DNA from: Effusibacillus dendaii
Lineage (GTDB): Bacteria; Bacillota; Bacilli; Tumebacillales; Effusibacillaceae
DNA: 64,000 nucleotides
Reading direction: 5' to 3'
Assembly: GCF_015097055.1 (NCBI RefSeq)
Contig: NZ_AP023366.1
Coordinates: 3,003,001 to 3,067,000 of the forward strand
In this document: piece after piece, positions 46,798-52,182 of the stretch
Position numbering within the stretch: position 1 is the stretch's first letter
How the letters are laid out: each line of letters begins with the position of its first letter
Position numbers and translations under genes: made by a program
Notes under the pieces: model-generated
Seen by the model: only the letters and a program-made list of their open reading frames with translations
Told to the model about the DNA's origin: nothing
Database searches by the model: none

Positions 46798-47330
46798 CTA
46801 TTGTAACAAAATTCTTATTACGTAATGGCTCCGTCTATTATATCCATGAGTGTTGCGGTTATTTGTTTTTCCGTTAAATTTCTCCGGTTTTTTAAATCGG
46901 TTCATTGCCTGTCTGGGTGTCCAAAGAGGCCTTAGAAGCCCTTCCCATTTCCTAAAAACGGCTGCCGTCGGTCTTGCATACTGCTCGCCGTTGATCGAAG
47001 AGCCGCCCCCAGGAATCGGCCTGTTGTCCATTCAAAAGTTAGTTCATCAAGTCCTTCCTGAGGCACTCCCTCCCCTTGCCAAAAGTACTTTGCAAAAAAT
47101 CTTTCTTCCAGCTCGGGGGCAAATGTAGAACCCCGAATTGGCTTATCTCGATCATTATTTTCTCCCGCTTCCAATACAAGAACGGAAGTTTTCTTATCAT
47201 CAGCAAGTGTCTTTGCAATGACAGTACCGGCGGGACCGGTGCCTATTACGACATAGTCAAAAACTAGTTTTCTATTATTTCTTTGTAATTTACTCAATCG
47301 GGATCCTCTTCCCTTACCTTCTGCGAACAC
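46798..47330 (-). pseudogene. N-terminal remnant of a GMC-family oxidoreductase
   Basis: The minus strand encodes the FAD-binding start of a GMC oxidoreductase: DYVVIGTGPAGTVIAKTL, then VLVLEAGENND. It reads on to TTGRFLG, where a missing G in a G run shifts the frame. The next frame continues GGGSSINGEQYARPTAAVF and KFNGKTNNRNTHG. The rest of the protein, about 350 residues, is absent. It is a truncated and shifted relic next to the DUF1259 fragment, on the same strand. Confidence 0.75.
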
Positions 47331-47622
47331 GGGGATTTACGGGTCCCGTAGTAAGAGTCGCCAATGCGCGTGCTGCTTTCCGAGCGAACGACAATGGCCT
47401 ATCAATAGATTCGAAATGGATGAACATCAGACGTGGACTGTCAAACAGCCAGTGGTCGTGAAAAGCAGTTACCTTGATTCCGTTTCGCCGCAGTACAGAG
47501 ATAAAGCGATTCACCTCACTTTGGAGTATAACGAAAATTCGCCGTTGCTGCTCGGACGCATGTGAAAACACACCTATTTCGTATCGGCAAAAAAAACGTT
47601 CATCGTCGTCAAAATTTTCCAA
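47314..47622 (-). pseudogene. C-terminal fragment of a DUF1259-type protein
   Basis: The 102 codons include VNRFISVLRRNGIKVTAFHD and WLFDSPRLMFIHFESID, which match the C-terminal part of DUF1259 proteins (usually ...NGI-x-VTA-x-HNHWL...). The N-terminal portion of the family is missing. It lies just upstream of the GMC relic on the same strand. The family annotation is from memory and the function unknown. Confidence 0.55.
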
Positions 47623-47637
47623 TCATCAACGGCGAAG

Positions 47638-47763
47638 ATGAAGCGAGGAAACGCGCTGGCGAGCAACGCGATTCGCATTAAGCAAAAAGCTACCGCTCGG
47701 GCACGGGGGGGCAATGCCGTTGCAGTAAACGCTGCCAACGTCCGCAAGGGCAAACGCCGCTAA
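47638..47763 (+). CDS. Possible 41-residue basic peptide (Ala/Asn/Arg/Lys-rich)
   Basis: The frame reads MKRGNALASNAIRIKQKATA and ends VRKGKRR. The peptide is strongly basic and low in complexity, like a nucleic-acid-binding or small spore protein. The ribosome-binding site is weak and no homologue is recognised. It may be chance coding next to decayed genes. Confidence 0.25.
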   Translation: MKRGNALASNAIRIKQKATARARGGNAVAVNAANVRKGKRR

Positions 47764-49606: not shown

Positions 49607-49789
49607 CGTCCCCGGCTCCTTTGTCACAAGTCAATTTAATTTATGCGGCAGCCTACTTGTTTGACACGGGATATTTTGTAACACATCCATGGTCGTCGGT
49701 CTTTGTTTAGAGGAATGTCTGTGTCTGCTTTCTCTTTTTTTGTTTGGACTCTATACAGGCTTGCGAAAAACAGTTATAGTAAAGGACAA

Positions 49790-49804
49790 TGAAAATCATT
49801 ATCA
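49790..49804 (+). promoter_or_regulatory. Fur box upstream of feoA
   Basis: TGAAAATCATTATCA matches the 7-1-7 Fur consensus TGATAATNATTATCA at all but one position. It lies about 15-50 bases before feoA, where bound Fur would block transcription when iron is plentiful. Confidence 0.85.
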
Positions 49805-49819: not shown

Positions 49820-50046
49820 ATGTTCCTCAGTGACTGCCAATCGGAGAAAAAATGAAAGTAAGCACCACGTTGACAAACGATGCGTTCGGCAGACGGCTGA
49901 TGGATTTGGGCTTGATTCCCGGAACGGAAGTGTCGGTGGTAAGAAAAGCGCCATTTGGGGATCCGATTGTAGTGCGATTTCGCGGATACCAGATTGGCTT
50001 GCGTGTGTCCGATGCAAAACGGATTTCCGTGGAAACGGTTTCGTAG
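49820..50046 (+). pseudogene. feoA: Ferrous iron transport protein FeoA, probable N-terminal frameshift
   Basis: FeoA is a small SH3-like partner of FeoB. The clear part (49852-50046, 64 residues) has FGRRLMDLGLIPGTEVSVV and APFGDPIVVRFRGYQIGLR. A normal FeoA start, MFLSDCQ, is found at 49820 in another frame; one extra base near 49840 would join it to IGEKMKVS. So the gene probably carries a one-base deletion, or translation starts at ATG 49852 and makes a protein about 10 residues short. A sequencing error is possible. Confidence 0.7.
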
Positions 50047-50055
50047 GGATGCGCC

Positions 50056-51904
50056 ATGTCTGTAACTATCGCATTGGCCGGGAATTTATAGCCTCTATGC
50101 GCAATCGATTGAGGAAAAGCTTGCGGTTTCGTATATATTAAATGAATCTCCCGATTTGCTGCTAAATATCGTCGATGCATCCAATCTGGAGCGCAATTTG
50201 TATTTTACAGTGCAGCTGCTGGAAATGGGGTTGCCAACCGTCGTTGCCTTGAATATGGTTGATGTGGCGGCATCGCAAGGCAGGAAAGTGAAACATGAAA
50301 CACTGGAAAATCGGCTCGGTGTTCCGGTTGTGTCGATGGTTGCCCGTAAGGGAATCGGACAGGATGATTTGATCAGACGGCTCAAACAGTACCCGTCCAC
50401 CAGTTCTTTCCGGATTGAATATCCGGCCGAGGTGGAGTCAGCGGTAGAGCGTTTGGTTGCCATCCTGGAACGTGCGGGTACGGTATTTACTCCCAGTTTC
50501 CGCTGGATTTCCCTGATGTGGATTGAACGGAATGAAACGGTTGAACAGGCCGTCTATAGCCGGGTCGATCCATCCGTTTATGAACAGATGCAGCAGGTTC
50601 GGGACCAATTGACGGAAAAAGCCGGCCATCTGATCCGCCATACCCGTTACAGTTGGATTGAATCGTTGACACAGGAGATTGTCATTCAGGAAAAAATGGT
50701 CAATCAGACATGGAGTGACCGGGTAGATCGTACTTTAATGCACCGCTATTTAGGTATCCCGATTTTTCTGTTCATGATGTTTCTGGTGTTTCAGTTGACG
50801 TTCAGTTGGGTGGGAACCTATCTGTCCGACCAGTTGGACAATGTATTCAGCGGTCCTGTTGCGGACGGGTTGCAATCACTGCTTGCATCGCTCAACAGCC
50901 CCGACTGGTTTTCCAGATTGATGGTCGACGGCATACTGACGGGTGTAGGCGGTGTATTGGTACTTGTGCCGCAGATTGCCATACTGTTTTTGGCTTTATC
51001 TTTTTTGGAAGACTCGGGGTATATGTCACGGGCTGCCATATTGTTGGACCGTTTGATGAGGGCTATAGGTCTAAACAGAAAATCGTTTATTCCGCTGATA
51101 TTGGGATTTGGCTGTAATGTGCCAGCCATTATGGCTACCCGTGTGCTTGAAGATGAAAGAGGGCGAATCGTGACGGCCTTAATGGCGCCATTTATGTCCT
51201 GTTCCGCCCGATTGTCCGTGTATTCGCTGTTCGTGGCGGCGTTTTTCGCCAAATGGCAGGGAGCTGTCGTGTTTCTGTTATATGTGACCGGAATTCTGGT
51301 GGCGATTGGGACCGCTTTTATTTTGAAAAAATGGTTGAGCGACAAAGAAAGTCCGTTTCTGATGGCACTGCCCCCGTACCGCGCTCCCATGCTGAAAAGT
51401 CTCTTCTTGCATACATGGGATAAGGCAAAAGGATTTTTGCGCAAGGCCGGAACTATCATTTTCTCCATGTCGGTGATTGTCTGGTTCCTTGGAAACTATT
51501 CCTGGCACGGAGCCGTTTCCATGGAGAATAGTTTTTTGGCGGCGGTCGGTGGTTTTATTGCGCCGCTGTTTGTCCCTATGGGATTTGCGACCTGGCAGGC
51601 GGGGTTTGCTTTACTGACCGGATTTCTGGCAAAAGAAGCGGTTGTTTCCACGATGAGCATCACGTACGGGACGGGGCAAGCGGTTGATATGCTCGGTTCT
51701 GTTCTGAAGACTGCGTTCACGCCGCAAGCCGCCCTTGCGTTTCTGTTTTTCGTGCTGCTGTACACGCCTTGTTTGTCTACGGTCGTAATGATGAAGCAGG
51801 AAACCGGTTCATGGCGGTGGACGGCCCTTTCAATCATTTACAGTTTTGCGGTTGCGTGGGTAGTTGCTTTGATGGTGTACGGAATTGCATCACGGGTCTA
51901 CTAA
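50056..51904 (+). pseudogene. feoB: Ferrous iron transporter FeoB with deleted P-loop region
   Basis: FeoB imports Fe(II), and its N-terminal G domain is required for transport. The gene starts MSVTIALAGN at 50056 with a typical FeoB beginning. It then jumps out of frame at CCGGGAAT (50078-50085) to what should be GIYSLYAQSIEEK. Compared with FeoB, about 45-50 codons are missing: the P-loop (NPNxGKT), switch I and the DLPG motif. The rest is intact in one frame: VDASNLERNLYFTVQLLEMG and NMVD of the G domain, then the transporter part with GFGCNVPAIMATR and FMSCSARLSVY. A truncated product from TTG 50156 would have no nucleotide-binding loop. Confidence 0.85.
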
Positions 51905-51928
51905 ATGCCGCACAAAGGTGGGAAAAAC

Positions 51929-52123
51929 ATGATTTACGCGGTCATGGCGGTTGTGTTGGGGGTTGCGGGATGGCAAATCGTGAATCTGGTAAGACGGGCG
52001 AAGCGGGGAATGTGCGCCAGCGGCTGTTCCGGCTGCGGATCAAATGGCCATTGCCCGATCCAGAACACTCACAACAATAGCATCGACGTTGATATTACGG
52101 ATGTGAAAGAGATTCGTTTGTAG
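51929..52123 (+). CDS. FeoB-associated Cys-rich membrane protein
   Basis: A 64-residue protein with one N-terminal membrane helix (AVMAVVLGVAGWQIVNLV) followed by a cysteine cluster (CASGCSGCGSNGHC). Such proteins are regularly encoded after feoB in Bacillota. ATG 51929 is preceded by AAAGGTGGG; ATG 51905 is in frame but poorly placed. It is intact although feoA and feoB are damaged. A terminator follows. Confidence 0.85.
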   Translation: MIYAVMAVVLGVAGWQIVNLVRRAKRGMCASGCSGCGSNGHCPIQNTHNNSIDVDITDVKEIRL

Positions 52124-52149
52124 CATTCACTAAACAGATAAGAAATAGA

Positions 52150-52182
52150 GGGAAGTCCAAAAACGGGCTTCCCTTCTTTTTG
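52150..52182 (+). terminator. Intrinsic terminator of the feo locus
   Basis: GGGAAGTCC pairs with GGGCTTCCC (one mismatch tolerated) and is followed by TTCTTTTTG. Confidence 0.85.

Follow-up and report, generated by a model that had tools for sequence, protein, structure and literature searches.

Deletion between short direct repeats is a classical way in which pseudogenes are formed, as in the lacI-type deletions, and the loss of an iron importer through a change of reading frame is represented by efeU of E. coli K-12, a cryptic gene which carries a frameshift. Among intact relatives of the ferrous iron transporter considered here, FeoB of the Brevibacillus type (B. massiliensis, L013; B. 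fluminis, L010; genome G007, L014) carries GNPNAGKTSLFN...GVTVEKKEG...DLPG, and its gene is placed in the order feoA, feoB and the FeoB-associated gene. The FeoB G domain has been described as essential in regulated import (PMC3153494), and a search of titles and abstracts in the literature found no report of a natural feoB devoid of the P-loop.

The feoB locus of Effusibacillus dendaii can be compared with each of these systems. It shares the gene order of the Brevibacillus-type loci, and what remains of the protein is 64-65% identical to their FeoB over 608 residues, but 143 bp covering the stretch mentioned above are lacking. As in the lacI-type deletions, the end points lie in a short sequence which fits both sides and of which one copy is left; in E. 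dendaii, however, the repeat is reconstructed from codons. As in E. coli K-12, the iron importer of a laboratory or type strain appears to have been killed by one frame-changing event in an otherwise intact operon, although efeU belongs to another transporter family and was affected by a small frameshift instead of a 143-bp deletion. The feoB of E. dendaii is a real but ordinary pseudogene.

E. dendaii is a soil bacterium. The genome of strain skT53 comprises 3,454,394 bp in one contig, and the stretch of 64,000 nucleotides analysed here (the window, to which positions refer) corresponds to bases 3003001-3067000. The G+C content of the window is 48.2%, in agreement with the 48.22 mol% published for skT53, at first Effusibacillus sp. 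skT53 and later named E. dendaii (PMC8297450; PMC8502169). The strain was sequenced with PacBio RS II subreads (1,362 Mb, ~395x) and assembled with FALCON (PMC8297450).

All elements of the feo operon are located on the + strand. Upstream of feoA, consensus matching points to a Fur-box-like operator (49785-49804): GACAATGAAAATCATTATC agrees with the Fur consensus at 16-17 of 19 positions, the top score within the window, and TGAAAATCATTATCA differs by one mismatch from the 15-mer inverted repeat. The intact feoA (49852-50046; Pfam FeoA, 67.6 bits), which also precedes feoB in relatives, is followed by a remnant of the normal feoB start (50056-50091), by the remainder of feoB (50078-51904) and by an intact gene for a FeoB-associated Cys-rich membrane protein (51905-52123; Pfam FeoB_associated, 38.2 bits), likewise found 3' of feoB in relatives. 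After the operon, a terminator-like hairpin with an 11-pair stem and a T tail (52148-52175) was recognised, again as a consensus match.

From the feoB start codon (ATG, 50056) the frame extends for just 11 codons, MSVTIALAGNL, before a TAG at 50089-50091, leaving no continuous ORF into the membrane core; relatives with an intact gene read M..TIALAGNPNAGKTSLFN. A second frame, which begins at 50078 with PGIYSLYAQSIEEK (PGIYSLYAQS...), continues for 608 codons, with no stop and no indel, to the TAA at 51902-51904. It comprises the end of the G domain, the helical domain and the retained membrane core, and matches Pfam FeoB_N at positions 55-154, FeoB_Cyto, Gate (128.5 bits) and FeoB_C (66.9 bits). 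In the Pfam profile search, positions 1-54 of FeoB_N had no match at the locus, and the P-loop of G1 (GNPNxGK[ST]), the Thr of G2 and the DL of the G3 motif DLPG are absent in every frame. A preliminary description of this DNA had placed the start MSVTIALAGN and the rest of the gene in different frames and had considered the remaining frame intact, and both observations hold.

The extent of the loss was taken from intact homologs, as the stretch running from the two nucleotides that precede GNPN up to the P of DLPG. This stretch measures 143 bp (47 codons and 2 nt) in L010, L013, L014, L015 and L016, the closest homologs, and 3n+2 bases in all 42 intact homologs measured, so that one event accounts for both the lost residues and the change of frame. 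Judged against these homologs, it is confirmed that 143 bp are missing from feoB, comprising G1 (P-loop), G2 (switch I) and the first residues (DL) of G3. The earlier figure of about 45-50 missing codons with a changed frame is thereby borne out, the G1-G3 region to which they had been assigned becomes G1, G2 and the beginning of G3, and the comparison also supports the proposal that the P-loop was lost by a deletion at CCGGGAAT. Programmed frameshifting was rejected as an explanation, since about 47 codons are absent and not just out of frame.

The deletion junction, CCGGGAAT at 50078-50085, is the sole remaining copy of a presumed direct repeat, and a single copy at the locus is expected after deletion between repeats. 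Leftward, in the start frame, it reads gCC GGG AAT (A-G-N), and rightward, in the downstream frame, CCG GGA ATt (P-G-I), as had already been noticed for the end of ALAGN and the start of PGI. Because the octamer fits both edges, a deletion between direct repeats of 8 bp accounts best for the loss, through either slippage or recombination. In the intact L016, the exact octamer is present at the upstream site and CCGGGAAC (7/8) at the downstream site, where several relatives are within one mismatch of the octamer; since both octamers were exact in none of the intact homologs compared, the repeat length is a reconstruction. Moreover, the A-G-N and P-G-I codons share the pattern CCNGGNAT, so the double reading needs only two wobble bases and can arise by chance, at about 1 in 16 by our own estimate, and the repeat could have been shorter than 8 bp. 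The proposed recombination between two CCGGGAAT copies is in keeping with the fit at both edges and with the exact upstream copy in L016, but like the full 8-bp length of the repeat it is inferred.

According to this mechanism, the parental feoB would have contained two CCGGGAAT copies, one in ALAGNP and one in DLPGI, between which replication slippage or illegitimate recombination would have produced a single 143-bp deletion. The deletion took out the P-loop together with switch I and the first part of G3 and shifted the frame, so that translation from the normal start now stops after 11 codons; Fe(II) uptake driven by FeoB would be lost, and the cell would depend on other metal importers. 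Given that the G domain is essential to the regulation of import (PMC3153494), FeoB transport has very likely been lost, and the gene is probably dead. Taken as a whole, we hold with high confidence that feoB of skT53 is a pseudogene derived from a single 143-bp deletion, most likely between CCGGGAAT copies, with FeoB-mediated Fe(II) uptake lost and other importers relied upon. The annotation should be corrected by marking feoB as a pseudogene. It is further predicted that the E. dendaii type strain cannot use FeoB for ferrous iron, which is relevant when reading its growth without oxygen, described as weak only (PMC8502169); a link between this weak growth and the loss of feoB is speculation.

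The preliminary description regarded the event as recent, which is plausible and for which the intact frame over 608 codons speaks, but relative-rate tests and conserved-site counts gave a mixed answer. Five sites that are conserved in at least 95% of 42 homologs are changed in E. dendaii (P86S, A145S, F296L, G334R, E430A), two of which, F296 and G334, are invariant in 42/42, and 8 of 11 clade members show 0-2 such departures. These changes lend some weight to the possibility, tentative and compatible with the best explanation, that the deletion is not very recent or that selection on feoB had been relaxed beforehand. Against it, three intact clade members also have 3-5 departures at such sites, two depart at 14 and 18 clade-invariant columns (15 here), relative-rate tests were not significant with 3/4 outgroups, and the 608 codons have accumulated neither stop nor indel.

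The same uninterrupted frame is also the pattern that a truncated product still in use would give, and the operon neighbours and the Fur-box-like site are intact. Nevertheless, it is extremely unlikely that a truncated FeoB core is made from an internal start and keeps part of its function in the absence of GTP binding: the domain that has lost G1, G2 and the beginning of G3 is one which regulated import is reported to require (PMC3153494), the invariant membrane-core residues F296 and G334 are changed, and the first in-frame candidate start, TTG at 50156, has no obvious ribosome-binding site. That a core without the G domain, translated from an internal start, has been kept in frame for a selected role, e.g. 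nucleotide-independent Fe(II) movement, is hardly credible. The living strain might instead carry an intact feoB from which 143 bp were dropped because of a mixed culture or a mistake in the assembly or its consensus, an option raised by the PacBio-only assembly, for which short-read polishing is not reported (PMC8297450), and by neighbouring genes at 46.8-47.7 kb which look frame-shifted too. At ~395x long-read coverage an assembly artefact behind the deletion is unlikely, and a clean loss of 143 bp whose junction reads both ways over 8 bp marks a biological deletion and not the 1-bp indel errors of PacBio; with indels also absent from feoA and from the rest of feoB, this reading is very improbable.

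The check for a second feoB proposed in the preliminary description was run over the genome, and neither a second feoB nor a displaced copy of the lost G1 segment is present. Other FeoB_N matches, in open frames of 234-820 codons, were rejected for both roles, being weakly FeoB-like and apparently other P-loop GTPases. Among other metal importers, the genome encodes one NRAMP, one FTR1-family protein and one clear FecCD-type permease, as assigned by family. Among the congeners, G001 is without any FeoB match, and G002 and G003 have a FeoB of another branch (47-48% identical). In comparison with L019 and L022, the E. dendaii feoB (50078-51904) falls among Brevibacillus-type FeoB and apart from the FeoB of G002 and G003, a placement suggestive of gene exchange or of differential loss of feoB within the genus.

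Further degraded genes are found near the operon, on the - strand. At 46798-47330, a GMC-type oxidoreductase remnant has its FAD-binding N terminus and a GGGSSINGEQ stretch in different frames, with the rest missing, and at 47317-47753 a DUF1259 (Pfam DUF1529 entry) gene remnant matches in frame only profile positions 62-120 of 121, with apparent earlier pieces in other frames. Together with feoB, several degraded genes are gathered within ~5 kb. Two more genomes of this class have FeoB-like matches with internal TGA stops, three in G079:C6:256700-258571 and one in G142:C8:151479-152864, so broken copies of the FeoB family exist elsewhere too.
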